Shown: positions 1-5,550, counted from the stretch's first letter. The stretch is 39,239 nt of DNA from Phycisphaerae bacterium (GCA_012729675.1 JAAYCR010000079.1:1-39239); one strand, 5' to 3'. A program made the numbers and translations. Notes: generated by a model from the sequence alone, not told the origin.

Positions 1-2
1 CC

Positions 3-1640
3 GAAATCCTCAAAGAGCATAGAAACGACTTAAGCGAAAATTCGCCTAAGTTACCGACAGGCGGAGTAGATAAAACGCAAGTTTGCGTATTACCGACAGG
101 CGATGTAGATAAATCGGAAAATTCCGATTTACCGACACGCAAGAACGGCAATTCAACAAATGCGTCTTCGAAGACGCAATTCAAAAGTATTGATGACATT
201 TTCCGGATAATGCAGGACAAGCACGGCGGCGAACTCGAAGCCCTTCACGAATACCACAATCCCGACGGTACACACAATCAGTATGTTATCCGATGGCGCG
301 GACAGGACACCAAAAAATATATATGGCCTTGCGTTCACACACCGGCAGGGTATGAACTCCGTTTCCCTGAAAGCCGGGTCTTGTACCGACTGCCGACGCT
401 GGCCGATGCAAAGACGGTTATTGTTTTGGAAGGCGAATTCAAAACCGATATTCTGGCCGGGTATGGATTCCCGGCCACCACGTCGAGCGGCGGCAGCAAG
501 GCGGCAGGTCGTACCGACTGGCGACCGCTGGCCGGAAAGAATGTTATTCTATGGCCGGACTACGACACACCGGGCAAGGGGTACGCCGATGACGTGAAGC
601 GGATACTTGAAGGGCTGGGATGCCGGGTCAAGATTATACACCCTTCAGAGCTTGACCTTGCCGTATCAGAGGACGCGAAGGACTATATCGACCAGTTACG
701 AAACGCCAAATATAACGAGCTTGAAATAAAAGAAAATCTGACAAGGGTCTTTGCACGGGCAAAATCGACCGGGGCGGGTCAAGAGGTTGTTTCTGTTTTG
801 TCGTCTATCGCGGCGGGTCAATATGAACCAATCGAGACGGGCTTTCATACGCTTGACGACGTGATGCAGATTCTTCCGGGGTCTTTGAATCTGGTTTGTG
901 GTAGTCCGGGGTCAAGTAAGAGCCTTTTAATGCTTCAGCTTGCGGCGCGATGGTACAGAGAGAAGATCAAGACGGCTGTTTTTGAACTCGAAAAGGATAG
1001 GGTTTTTCATTTACGCAGAGCATTAGCACAGGAAAGCGGGCTTGCAATGCTGACAAATAATAAATGGACAAAACGCAATGCCGAACTTGCCCAAAAGACG
1101 GCATTGGAACATTTAGACTGGATGGATAATTTTGGACGGATGATTTTTGCATATCCCGAAAAGATTATCTATCAGCGCGACGTTATCGAATGGACACGAC
1201 AAAGAGCCGACGCTGGATGCCGGGCGGTCGTTATCGACCCGGCGACCAAAGCGGAACGTCAAGACGAACCCTATAAGGCCGACGGTCTTTTTGTGCAACA
1301 GCTTGCACAGATCGCAACAATGACAAGGTTGGTTATCTTTTTGGTTTTACACCCTACAAAGTCTTTGGTTGCGATGCCGGATTTATCACAGATCGCAGGC
1401 GGCGCGTCTTATGGTCGTTTTGCTGATAATGCCGTATGGCTTGAAAACCACGAAGCCAAAACATCATCGGTCAAGACCTGTTGCGGGACAACGGACACAC
1501 AACACGACAGGACGCTATGGATATTGAAATCACGCGACGGCGCGGGTACAGGGTCACGAATAGCGTTCAAATTCAATAACGATAATCTGACATTAAGAGA
1601 GCTTGGAAAAATTGATAAAAGGAAAAAAGGCAATGAATGA
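3..1640 (+). CDS. Primase-helicase of the mobile element (TOPRIM plus RecA-like ATPase), 5' end missing
   Basis: The frame is open from the left edge, so the true start lies outside the window; an internal ATG at 210 gives a 476-residue protein. Counting from that ATG, a TOPRIM-like domain covers about residues 65-150 (VIVLEGE near 70, WPDYDTPG near 115). A RecA/DnaB-like ATPase follows, with Walker A GSPGSSKS at 231-238 and a Walker B-like AVVIDPAT near 340. This pairing is typical of element-encoded replication proteins that prime and unwind their own DNA. The segment before residue 1 is coded by a palindromic repeat array (29-137) and is probably a linker behind an N-terminal primase or zinc domain not seen here. 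The 3' end overlaps the next small gene. Confidence 0.85.
   Translation, partial: EILKEHRNDLSENSPKLPTGGVDKTQVCVLPTGDVDKSENSDLPTRKNGNSTNASSKTQFKSIDDIFRIMQDKHGGELEALHEYHNPDGTHNQYVIRWRGQDTKKYIWPCVHTPAGYELRFPESRVLYRLPTLADAKTVIVLEGEFKTDILAGYGFPATTSSGGSKAAGRTDWRPLAGKNVILWPDYDTPGKGYADDVKRILEGLGCRVKIIHPSELDLAVSEDAKDYIDQLRNAKYNELEIKENLTRVFARAKSTGAGQEVVSVLSSIAAGQYEPIETGFHTLDDVMQILPGSLNLVCGSPGSSKSLLMLQLAARWYREKIKTAVFELEKDRVFHLRRALAQESGLAMLTNNKWTKRNAELAQKTALEHLDWMDNFGRMIFAYPEKIIYQRDVIEWTRQRADAGCRAVVIDPATKAERQDEPYKADGLFVQQLAQIATMTRLVIFLVLHPTKSLVAMPDLSQIAGGASYGRFADNAVWLENHEAKTSSVKTCCGTTDTQHDRTLWILKSRDGAGTGSRIAFKFNNDNLTLRELGKIDKRKKGNE
29..137 (+). repeat. Coding cluster of three hairpins on a roughly 39-nt unit
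   Basis: Hairpin arms are 29-38/41-50, 71-80/83-92 and 110-119/122-131, each with a 2-nt loop (AA, GT, AA). The first two stems have one mismatch and the third is perfect. A near-identical 24-nt direct repeat occurs at 51-74 and 90-113, and its first nine bases recur at 129-137. Repeat plus palindromic spacer makes a 39-nt unit, a multiple of three, so the primase frame stays open. The peptide contains two LPTGxVDK copies. The stems differ in sequence while the frame around them is constant. Confidence 0.85.
161..178 (+). repeat. Perfect 18-bp palindrome inside the primase gene
   Basis: TGCGTCTTCGAAGACGCA is self-complementary over its full length. It lies about 25 bp after the coding hairpin cluster but lacks the 2-nt loop and flanking bases of that family. 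It may be a related element or a protein-binding site. Confidence 0.6.
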
Positions 1641-1755
1641 TAGAAGTAGAATTATTAATGCCGTTGCCAACTATATCATCGATAAAAGGCGTCGGCGCGA
1701 CCCACCAAAACGGCGACGGCAGGATAAAAACAAAAATCAGAGAACACTATTTTAA
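1633..1755 (+). CDS. Small basic protein, 40 aa, unknown
   Basis: The ATG lies inside the last codons of the primase-helicase gene, an overlap typical of translationally coupled phage genes. The stop is followed within 12 bp by the next ATG, with GGA just before it. The product is rich in Arg and Lys, with runs such as KRRRRDPPKRRR, and could bind nucleic acid. A second frame starting at 1637 (ATGA overlap, 49 aa) is also open. I prefer the 1633 frame because its stop fits the next gene. No family recognised. Confidence 0.4.
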   Translation: MNDRSRIINAVANYIIDKRRRRDPPKRRRQDKNKNQRTLF

Positions 1756-1766
1756 GGAAACAAACT

Positions 1767-2348
1767 ATGAAAACGGTAAAGATTGATCTGAAAATTCACG
1801 ACGGGTATCGAACCGAAAATGAAAAACTGATGAGGTTGTATGAAAAAAGAACATCGACGGAAGCGGAAATTCGACGGCTGACAGAATTTCTCGAATTGGG
1901 AAAACCCGCCACTAAAACGGAAATAAGCGTCGACGACATTCTGGCGGCGGACTGCCCCGGAAAAGAAATCGAAAGTACGACGGCACAACGCGAAGCCATT
2001 GAACAATTAAAGGCGGCGCGGCGGTCTGTTTCATTGATTGAGGCAGCTGTCGAGAAGCAGCGGCAAAAAATCGAAGAGCAACGTTTTCCGGCGAGCCGAC
2101 AGGTCGTCAAGGAGCTGTTGGAACCGGAAATGACACCAATTCTTAAAGAGATTAGACGCAGCGGAGCATCACTGATTGAAGCGTTCCGCAAGCGCGAGGA
2201 GCTGCTTGACGCATTCGAGCAAGCGGGCGGCGGAATCAGCACGCTACCGGAAAGTTATCAGCGGACAAGTCTCGAATTTTGGCTTAGAAAAATCGCCTGC
2301 CCCGGAAATCCGGCAGACATTTTCTTGCAGCAGATTGGAGCTAAATAA
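1767..2348 (+). CDS. Coiled-coil protein of the element, 193 aa, unknown
   Basis: The protein is mostly charged helix. Residues about 15-45 and 75-145 are rich in Glu, Lys, Arg and Gln with heptad-like spacing, suggesting a coiled coil. There is no signal peptide or membrane segment. The stop overlaps the next start by one base (TAATG), so the two genes are probably translationally coupled. Its position between the primase and a terminase-like gene fits a phage or satellite replication or packaging accessory, but I recognise no family. Confidence 0.75.
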   Translation: MKTVKIDLKIHDGYRTENEKLMRLYEKRTSTEAEIRRLTEFLELGKPATKTEISVDDILAADCPGKEIESTTAQREAIEQLKAARRSVSLIEAAVEKQRQKIEEQRFPASRQVVKELLEPEMTPILKEIRRSGASLIEAFRKREELLDAFEQAGGGISTLPESYQRTSLEFWLRKIACPGNPADIFLQQIGAK

Positions 2349-2542
2349 TGAACTTGCAGATGAACTTGAAGCAGCGAAAATTGTTCGAATTGTCTTGCGG
2401 TCAATTTAACAAGCGCGACGTTTACGACCCCAAAAACCCGTCGGATTTACAGAGGGAAATAATCCGTTTAGTGAGCAAGAACGATAGACCGACGCTGGAG
2501 ACAATGCGAAGGCGGTTGCGGCTGGCGCTGGCCGATGATTAA
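2348..2542 (+). CDS. Small element protein, 64 aa, unknown
   Basis: It starts in a TAATG overlap with the preceding coiled-coil gene. A second in-frame ATG at 2357 could also be used. The product is basic at its C-terminus (METMRRRLRLAL-like helix) with no recognised domain. The tight coupling and shared strand argue that it is real. Confidence 0.55.
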   Translation: MNLQMNLKQRKLFELSCGQFNKRDVYDPKNPSDLQREIIRLVSKNDRPTLETMRRRLRLALADD

Positions 2543-2561
2543 CGATGCGATTCCTTTGTGG

Positions 2562-2589
2562 CCTGCCGCTGCTGGCGTAGGGCGGCAGG
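2562..2589 (+). terminator. Hairpin in the 164-bp gap after the small element gene
   Basis: CCTGCCGC and GCGGCAGG form a perfect 8-bp stem around a 12-nt loop, followed by TTTATAAAG. It could be a weak intrinsic terminator or an attenuator separating the replication genes from the terminase-like gene. Nothing else clear is seen between 2543 and 2706. Confidence 0.45.
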
Positions 2590-2706
2590 TTTATAAAGCC
2601 GACCGGGGGGGCCTTCTTTTCTGGGGATGCAGGCTACCGAGACCGGGGTGTAAGCTTCAACAAAAATTCGGTACACGATTGAATTAAGTTGAATAATGGA
2701 GTTAAA

Positions 2707-3012
2707 ATGTCAAAAAGAAAAAGTACATTCCAATCAGAAGCGGCGCGATTGCTTTACGAACGGACGATTGAGACCTTCGAGCTTGACCAGCACCACATCG
2801 AAACGCTGAAGCTGGCTTGCGATACCTTGGATAGAATCGCAGCGGCACAGGCGGCATTGCACCGCGACGGCGATATTATCAAAGACAGATACAACTGCCC
2901 GAAAGCGCACCCGGCACAGAGGATGCTGGAATCAAATAAAATAATATTTAGCCGTTTGCTTCGAGAATTAAGGCTTGACGACGGCCAAACACATAATGAA
3001 ATGGAGCTATAA
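2707..3012 (+). CDS. P27-family-like phage terminase small subunit, 101 aa
   Basis: The pattern matches the P27 terminase small-subunit family as I know it: an N-terminal helix, then FELDQHHIETLKLACDTLDR, a short stretch ending KDRYNCPKAHPAQ, and a C-terminal RLLRELRLDD helix. Members recognise viral DNA for packaging together with a large terminase. I start at 2707 (MSKRKS) because AATGGAGT sits just upstream; an ATG at 2689 would add six residues. No large terminase is visible, which is usual in satellites that borrow the helper's. The family call is by pattern memory, not a search. Confidence 0.7.
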   Translation: MSKRKSTFQSEAARLLYERTIETFELDQHHIETLKLACDTLDRIAAAQAALHRDGDIIKDRYNCPKAHPAQRMLESNKIIFSRLLRELRLDDGQTHNEMEL

Positions 3013-3013
3013 A

Positions 3014-3190
3014 ATGCCACGACGTAAAATAATGAGAAGACGCAAAGACACTGCTTTTGACCCTTTTGAGGAAGTTTGCACCAGAGCCAAACGGCGACGG
3101 CTGGCGGGGAATGACCCGGTAAAGCTGGCCGAGTGTGAACGGTTGCAACGGCTAACGGCGGACTTTATCGAAGCAACCCGGTCGAAGTAG
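3014..3190 (+). CDS. Small basic protein, 58 aa, unknown
   Basis: It starts two bases after the terminase-like stop, with GGAG overlapping the end of that gene as a ribosome site. The N-terminus is strongly basic (MPRRKIMRRRKD) and the rest looks helical. It may act with the upstream packaging gene, but no family is recognised. It is the last gene before the non-coding hairpin cluster. Confidence 0.6.
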   Translation: MPRRKIMRRRKDTAFDPFEEVCTRAKRRRLAGNDPVKLAECERLQRLTADFIEATRSK

Positions 3191-3198
3191 AGACCTCT

Positions 3199-3364
3199 CG
3201 GAAAATTCCGGAAAGTTACCCGGCTGGCATTCAGACCGGGCGGCGTAGGTAGGCCGCAAAATTGCGGGCTACCTGTCAGACAAAAGAGTAGCTTAACAAA
3301 TGTTACGCTACCTACTTGGTAGGACATAATCCCCAAAAGAGTAGGTCGGAAAATTCCGAGCTAC
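3199..3364 (+). repeat. Non-coding cluster of four hairpins with constant frame and variable stems
   Basis: Arms are 3199-3203/3206-3210, 3249-3259/3262-3272, 3288-3298/3301-3311 and 3341-3351/3354-3364, all with an AA loop. The last three have 11-nt arms that begin GTAG and end CTAC, while the middle of the stem changes: GTAGGCCGCAA, GTAGCTTAACA and GTAGGTCGGAA. Each has one mismatch at stem position 5 or 6. Hairpins 2 and 3 are exactly 39 nt apart, the same unit as in the coding cluster at 29-137. The flank GGCGGCGTAGGTA resembles the GGCGATGTAGATA of that cluster. Confidence 0.85.
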
Positions 3365-3544
3365 CTACTTGGTTGGACTGGTTGGAATCCAAAGGAATCT
3401 CCGACAAGGCCACTGGGAGCCGTTTCTGACGGCGATCACGGGAAAAGGGTACTGCGGCAGGGGTCTTGCGGTCGATTGATTGACGGGGCTTGTATGGGCG
3501 TTTATCGACGGGGAGCTGGAAAAGTGTGAGACGTGGGAAGATGT

Positions 3545-3574
3545 TAGGTCTAATAAATCTATTAGACCTATTTT
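3545..3574 (+). terminator. Perfect 11-bp inverted repeat followed by TTTT
   Basis: TAGGTCTAATA and TATTAGACCTA flank a 4-nt loop, then TTTT. The stem is AT-rich, so termination would be weak. A dimeric repressor operator, for example for the nearby Xre protein, is an equally good reading. Confidence 0.45.
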
Positions 3575-3635
3575 AACCACAGAGCCAGAGTTGTCTAACA
3601 AATATATTAAACAACTTTGTTGACAGGTTACAAAT

Positions 3636-3797
3636 ATGACTTTTTCGGATGATAGGACACCGGAACAACGGGAACGGGACATTGAATCCCACCAGCTACG
3701 GATACAACAGGCGTTTCGGCAGTTGCGGCGGGCTGGATATAATCCCCAAACGACACCGGCCAAAACAGCGGATAAAATCTTGGAAAATAATAGTTGA
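3636..3797 (+). CDS. Small protein, 53 aa, unknown
   Basis: An ATG frame encodes a charged, Gln- and Arg-rich helical protein. No good ribosome site precedes the ATG. Its stop overlaps the -35 box of the regulator promoter at 3794. The amino-acid make-up is protein-like, but no family is recognised. Confidence 0.4.
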   Translation: MTFSDDRTPEQRERDIESHQLRIQQAFRQLRRAGYNPQTTPAKTADKILENNS

Positions 3798-3822
3798 CAC
3801 TTGTAAGCATATCGGATAATAT
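3794..3822 (+). promoter_or_regulatory. Strong sigma70-type promoter for the xre-int pair
   Basis: TTGACA (3794-3799), a 17-bp spacer and TAATAT (3817-3822) give a near-consensus promoter. The predicted start of transcription falls at about 3829, the A of the first ATG of the regulator gene. The mRNA would be leaderless, or translation starts at the next ATG (3838). Confidence 0.8.
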
Positions 3823-3828
3823 AGCGTT

Positions 3829-4024
3829 ATGGACACGATGAAAACAATTCGAAAAGAGATTGAAGACAGCCCTTTATCACAACGGGAAATCAGCCGCCAA
3901 ACGGGAATTAACATAGCGGCGATTCATCGGATTATGGTACAGGGTACGGGGCTGACAGCGGCAAGTTGCGATAAGCTACTGAACTTTTTTGGCTATGAAC
4001 TCAAAAAGAAAAAAGGAAAGAAAA

Positions 4025-4041
<17 letters not shown>
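3829..4041 (+). CDS. Xre-family helix-turn-helix regulator, 70 aa
   Basis: Residues about 14-60 form a Cro/C1-type helix-turn-helix: SQREISRQTGINIAAIHRIM as helices 2-3, then GLTAASCDKLLNFFGYEL. The C-terminus is a lysine-rich tail. The promoter puts the transcript start on the ATG at 3829, so either that codon is used leaderless or the start is ATG 3838 (MKTIRK), with a GGA upstream inside the ORF. It overlaps the integrase gene, so the pair is co-transcribed and the protein probably controls integrase expression and possibly other element genes. Confidence 0.8.
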
Positions 4042-5391
<1,350 letters not shown>

Positions 5392-5550
5392 TAAGTCAAT
5401 TATTTATAAAAGCTTAACCTGATTTTAGGATACTGTTCTTGGGTGTCGCAGCCCAAAAGTTCGCTAACCTTACATAAAACCTGCGCATTTTGCAAGAAGA
5501 TAATCGAAAAACCCTTTTGTTTTTGTCAGAAAAATACAGTTCGTCTATCC

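Follow-up and report, generated by a model that had tools for sequence, protein, structure and literature searches.

Two clusters of hairpins with variable but complementary arms in a tRNA-integrated element of a Phycisphaerae bacterium

The DNA analyzed here is a 39,239-nt contig of a Phycisphaerae bacterium (GCA_012729675.1 JAAYCR010000079.1:1-39239; contig C70, hereafter the window). Near its start lie two clusters of short hairpins, one of them inside a primase-helicase gene, whose arms change from copy to copy while remaining complementary, which raises the question of what such hairpins are and at which level their pairing is maintained. Both clusters belong to a 7,722-bp element that is integrated in a tRNA-Val gene and was assembled by joining C70 to a second contig of the same genome (C23, locus L021), which holds the left part. 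All seven hairpins listed in a first-pass annotation of the window were found at the positions given there, and the observation is real, sound and unusual. Tentatively, we favor reading them as tandemly expanded and diversified iteron-like DNA sites, semi-palindromic and centered on A-tracts, of the replication module of the element; unselected duplication with arm homogenisation ranks second, and an origin resembling that of repetitive extragenic palindromes (REPs) third.

Cluster 1 comprises three hairpins within positions 1-150 of the window (loop centers at 39.5, 81.5 and 120.5) and cluster 2 four hairpins within 3181-3380 (3204.5, 3260.5, 3299.5 and 3352.5). The loop always has two nucleotides, AA in six hairpins and GT in the one at 71-92. 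All units share one orientation and follow each other in direct tandem order with common spacers. The 39-nt unit proposed earlier was recovered, while the spacings originally listed (39, 39, 42, 50 and 53 nt) have to be replaced by loop-center distances of 42 and 39 nt in cluster 1 and 56, 39 and 53 nt in cluster 2. In a test against 1000 dinucleotide-preserving shuffles, with a hairpin defined by a 2-nt loop and a score of at least 7, positions 1-150 contained 3 hairpins (shuffled mean 0.018) and positions 3181-3380 likewise 3 (shuffled mean 0.006), a number reached by none of the shuffles in either region. The first 3.6 kb hold eight of the nine strongest 2-nt-loop hairpins of the 39-kb window. 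The hairpin at 3199-3210 (h4) is weak, with a core of 5 bp.

The frame around the hairpins is less uniform, and the cores are less diverse, than initially described. TACC follows the core in all seven copies, whereas GTAG precedes it in only six, at a distance of 0-8 nt, and is absent in h1; it pairs with CTAC in the hairpins at 3249, 3288 and 3341 and is free or partly free in h2-h4. The statement that the cores differ completely was too strong, as five of the seven share CG[CG]AA-NN-TT[CG]CG and three of these are identical (CGGAAAATTCCG), the identical core occurring within three different flank types. The consensus between GTAG and TACC can be written as nCGSAA-AA-TTSCGn, with an AAAATT center in h1, h3, h4, h5 and h7. 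Across the element the core consensus is present at five places only, every one of which is a hairpin.

The arms nevertheless vary while staying complementary within this frame, as was evident both from the loop-aligned copies and from pairs of near-duplicate units. In the alignment of the seven copies, 10 of 11 stem pairs had changed on both sides, 88% of the cells were paired compared to 61% after shuffling (0 of 500 shuffles reached the observed value), and sliding the partners by 1-3 columns abolished the pairing; since these copies had been selected for pairing, the near-duplicate units provide the cleaner test. Between 3281-3325 and 3334-3378 (h6 and h7) we counted one difference in 29 flank positions and ten in the 16 positions of the palindromic core, with the pairing kept (p = 2e-5), and 51-89 and 90-128 (h2 and h3) showed the same trend (2/28 in the flanks, 7/15 in the core; p = 0.005). 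Only 1 of 68 pairs was G-U, which, within the limits of such small numbers, points to pairing at the DNA level and argues against selection at the RNA level. The presence of the same DNA unit in a coding and a non-coding site also indicates that the constraint acts on DNA.

Within the primase-helicase, cluster 1 occupies the linker that joins the zinc domain to the Toprim domain, and it is in frame. The reading frame of the primase is indeed open, as stated before: the part in the window (3-1640) runs into contig C23 to give a protein of 627 aa, which would tolerate the cluster because this linker is presumably flexible. Cluster 2 is located between an operon with a terminase-small-like gene and a gene pair for a small helix-turn-helix (HTH) protein and the integrase. 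The GTAG of h4 contributes the TAG stop of an open reading frame (ORF) ending at 3190. All seven units can be read in one register as (S/T)(E/Q/T)(N/V)(S/C/V)..LP, and hence cluster 2 may have arisen as a copy of coding sequence that was frameshifted later.

According to the reading that we favor, a putative protein of the element (the O-like initiator, the primase-helicase or the small HTH protein) would dock on the hairpins, either as duplex sites or as extruded hairpins. Cluster 1 would be positioned near the O-like gene with its probable origin, whereas cluster 2 would represent a second site, and the role would be in replication or its control. Complementarity of the arms would be held by selection for the palindrome, possibly aided by template switching in which one arm is rewritten from the other, a process that keeps arms matched in other systems and has been described for coding genes (PMC8604942). 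The idea of recognition hairpins for an element-encoded protein, already put forward in the first-pass annotation, is a possible reading and lies close to this.

Among the nearest known parallels are the iterons of RepA_N replicons, which are semi-palindromic direct repeats with arms meeting on a poly-A tract and which are reported to have been restructured in a satellite that a phage nuclease attacks (PMC7145576, PMC8263062). The hairpins agree with this type, and with the iterons of the PLE satellites of Vibrio cholerae, in that they are repeated directly, have inverted arms that meet at an A-tract, and reside on an integrative, satellite-like element. Iterons of such systems are also known to undergo restructuring when selected (PMC8263062). 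Unlike in those systems, the arms here vary strongly within a single element and the clusters are 3 kb apart, one of them in the primase gene; furthermore, the element has no RepA_N protein. With regard to a location at an origin, cluster 1 is in the primase-helicase gene and cluster 2 is 3 kb downstream, while the probable ori repeats lie elsewhere, in the O-like gene. The lambda ori, whose iterons are located in gene O (PMC4488673), is similar in that a mobile element keeps repeats with dyad symmetry in frame within one of its replication genes. However, the repeats of lambda hardly differ from one another and belong to the initiator gene, whereas the hairpins are found partly in a primase-helicase gene and partly between genes; the O-like gene of the present element carries its own, different repeats in addition.

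Several observations weigh against the iteron-like interpretation. The repeats of the O-like gene (TTTACTTTGAC / GACCCCCACGTC; upstream of window position 1, at about 485-585 of L021 on the minus strand) adjoin an AT-rich stretch, and repeats of the same type occur in the relative L036. This region is the probable lambda-like origin of the element, so that the origin probably lies outside the hairpin clusters, which would then be additional sites. A sequence-specific protein would disfavor h1 and h6, which fall outside the CGSAA-NN-TTSCG consensus. The spacings of 39-56 nt show no helical phasing, and no cognate binding protein has been pinned down. In favor of the interpretation, relatives with homologous primases have in-frame palindromic repeats in the O-like gene just upstream, some converging on A-rich centers: ATAGGGC-cAAAAAATA-GCCCTAT and variants (four copies, L046 7421-7533), GCAACAAAATGTTGCC and GCAACGAATCGTTGCC (L045 7446-7563), and GTAACC-AATTCA-GGTGAC and variants (four copies, L048 7519-7601). 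The arms of the L046 repeats showed no significant covariation, and the iterons of the relatives are thus an analogy for the hairpins rather than homologues of them. If our interpretation holds, palindromes of a replication module can diversify their arms yet keep their symmetry, and keep an open frame inside a replication enzyme. They would offer a direct test of structure versus sequence recognition, and their arms would preserve, as a natural record, the traces of homogenisation or of an arms race. They would also point to a little-studied family of small tRNA-integrated elements of Sedimentisphaerales/Phycisphaerae with in-frame iteron-like repeats in replication genes.

The hairpins appear to be confined to this one element. 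A covariance model built from the seven copies (R1) recovered these in the own genome without any further convincing match, in line with the earlier report that the chromosomal part has no copies; one match on contig C74 (E 0.84), near a degraded IS200-type gene, was rejected for its long loop and missing GTAG. Among 397 genomes of the class, searched with stricter filters that can lose weak matches, R1 had two lone matches outside the own genome and no array; one (L205) was terminator-like and the other (L206) an isolated perfect palindrome. The pattern GTAG-N2-8-CGSAANNTTSCG-N3-6-TACC matched eight times in this genome, always in the element, once and chance-like in 161 genomes of the order, and nowhere else in 392 genomes of the phylum. 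Degenerate frame patterns hit 102 and 37 stretches of viral contigs, with a few lone palindromes (L230, L232/L293) and no arrays, and BLASTN searches of cluster 2 against phages and plasmids and of cluster 1 against phages were empty. As had been suggested, related primases were compared: the closest relative (L036, 54% identity) has a shorter linker and no hairpins, and among 160 related primase loci from genomes and viral contigs only the cluster of the window combines shared flanks with variable stems. R1 found nothing convincing at the same loci, its best match being an array of AGTTGGC palindromes (L105, E 0.017). Palindromic arrays of AGTTGGCA (L105:2202-2340 and L094:9749-9890, from Ferrovum and Stutzerimonas) open the ORF immediately 3' of related primases. 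Homologous elements with an O-like and primase gene pair and an integrase-like gene adjoin tRNA genes in another genome (G014; L037, L038).

A less probable competitor assigns the hairpins no function. Tandem duplication of 39 nt in a tolerant linker, combined with template switching at quasi-palindromes, which homogenises arms and creates multi-nucleotide changes, would have made the palindromes and would maintain them, and cluster 2 would be a decayed copy. Coding genes provide documented cases of arm homogenisation through template switching (PMC8604942), covariation restricted to Watson-Crick pairs fits such a process, and so does the common peptide register. It accounts less well for a core that recurs between unlike flanks, for flanks that stay almost unchanged around unlike cores, for three identical cores, and for pairing kept in both separate clusters.

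We regard it as unlikely that the paired shape rather than the sequence is the signal, in which case an element protein such as the primase-helicase would read extruded hairpins in the GTAG...TACC frame and the arms would be actively diversified, for example so that a competing element or a helper phage could no longer target them with its nuclease or repressor.

An origin from GTAG-REP-like single-strand hairpins that a host transposase of IS200/RAYT type moves, or moved at one time, and that then expanded locally seems similarly improbable. Published GTAG-REPs are known from Planctomycetes; they lie inside genes for replication and repair, and the stop codon of the ORF upstream is often their TAG (PMC3733652). 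The hairpins resemble them as short palindromes with 5' GTAG (in six of seven) and short loops within a replication gene, and h4 supplies a TAG stop in the same way. The genome of the host itself contains a classic GTAG-REP family, GTAGGATGGGCTTTAGCCCATC (19 exact-pattern copies), together with four Y1_Tnp matches. In a 447-kb sample of the chromosome GTAG was the most enriched tetranucleotide beside hairpins (20 versus 4.6 expected), largely because of the GTAGGATGGGCTTTAGCCCATC family. Examples on host contigs are L372:7779-7800, L382:8858-8879 and, on the minus strand, L376; two genomes of the same genus have one to three copies. However, the hairpins share no stem with GTAGGATGGGCTTTAGCCCATC, stand in direct tandem order with shared spacers and an additional conserved 3' TACC, and have GTAG paired with CTAC in three copies and lacking in one. 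Neither the covariance model nor the consensus pattern found them outside the element, in contrast to the high-copy dispersal of GTAG-REPs. None of the four Y1_Tnp genes lies in the element or is flanked by a GTAG hairpin, whereas a RAYT gene would be flanked by the repeat, and the two Y1_Tnp proteins scanned were below the REP-transposase cut-off. The earlier suggestion of mobile palindromes is only partly supported, with the GTAG-REP family and the IS200-type transposases of the host in its favor; a dispersed family is not supported, as the units are tandem, co-oriented, joined by common spacers and restricted to one element. The comparison with Rickettsia palindromic elements captures the retention of palindromic sequence in frame within a gene, but fails on copy number and dispersal: those elements are spread over many unrelated genes, whereas the units here are shorter and have no copy outside the element in their own genome.

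RNA hairpins in the transcript, serving regulation, processing or protein binding, are very unlikely. Compared to shuffled sequences, the predicted folds of the two clusters are more stable (z = -4.6 and -4.9), but the DNA fold is equally extreme, G-U pairs are almost absent, and in a scan of window positions 1-5400 against Rfam only the tRNA passed its family's cut-off, with no match for the hairpins. Least probable of all is a pac/cos-like packaging or centromere-like site for the terminase-small-like protein, whose PF05119 gene ends about 180 bp before cluster 2, as cluster 1 sits 3 kb away in the primase, the terminase match is weak and no helper phage is known.

Table 1. Hairpins, palindromes and genes of the element located in the window.
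Feature	Position	Strand	Remarks
Primase-helicase	3..1640	+	CHC2/Toprim/DnaB-like; C-terminal 545 of 627 aa; start on C23, L021:347
Hairpin h1	24..55	+	CTTAAGCGAA-AA-TTCGCCTAAG; in-frame, primase linker; peptide DLSENSPKLPT
Hairpin h2	66..97	+	TAAAACGCAA-GT-TTGCGTATTA; 39-nt unit; peptide KTQVCVLPT
Hairpin h3	105..136	+	TAAATCGGAA-AA-TTCCGATTTA; 39-nt unit; peptide KSENSDLPT
Extra palindrome	158..181	.	AAATGCGTCTTCGAAGACGCAATT; same primase linker; sequence differs; membership uncertain
Terminase small subunit-like protein	2704..3012	+	PF05119, E 1e-5
Hairpin h4	3187..3220	+	Core CGGAA-AA-TTCCG
Hairpin h5	3245..3276	+	GTAGGCCGCAA-AA-TTGCGGGCTAC
Unit with hairpin h6	3281..3325	+	GTAGCTTAACA-AA-TGTTACGCTAC; near-duplicate of 3334-3378
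Unit with hairpin h7	3334..3378	+	GTAGGTCGGAA-AA-TTCCGAGCTAC; compared to 3281-3325, flanks 28/29 and core 6/16 identical
Small HTH regulator-like protein	3829..4041	+	Below Pfam cut-offs
Tyrosine integrase	3989..5380	+	
att core, 26 bp	5315..5340	.	Inside tRNA-Val; second copy at other element end, contig C23

In addition to the primase-helicase, the element encodes two HTH_17 excisionase-like proteins and an O-like winged-helix replication protein, as well as the terminase-small-like protein, small ORFs, the small HTH protein and a tyrosine integrase. The first 103 bases of the window are identical to the end of contig C23 (L021:1-103), and this overlap lies inside cluster 1. In the same assembly, two further pairs of contig ends that were examined share 120 and 126 bases, and the overlap thus resembles a branch of the assembly graph; the sampled population may contain a second allele of the array.

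The integrase ORF continues through the att site in tRNA-Val, and once the element is excised as a circle, this ORF would probably extend into a 98-aa ORF at the other end (L021 about 2150-2450), so that excision would alter the C-terminus of the integrase. The peptide RVQKSAH is found at both ends of the element. At about 3370-3620 a reading frame resembles a gene remnant (..LTAITGKGYCGRGLAVD*LTGLVWAFIDGELEKCETWEDVRSNKSIRP..) with one TGA, a 47-aa part of which had no Pfam match. A second extra palindrome at 3545-3570, with perfect 11-bp arms (TAGGTCTAATA-AATC-TATTAGACCTA) followed by a T-run, is possibly a terminator or an operator.

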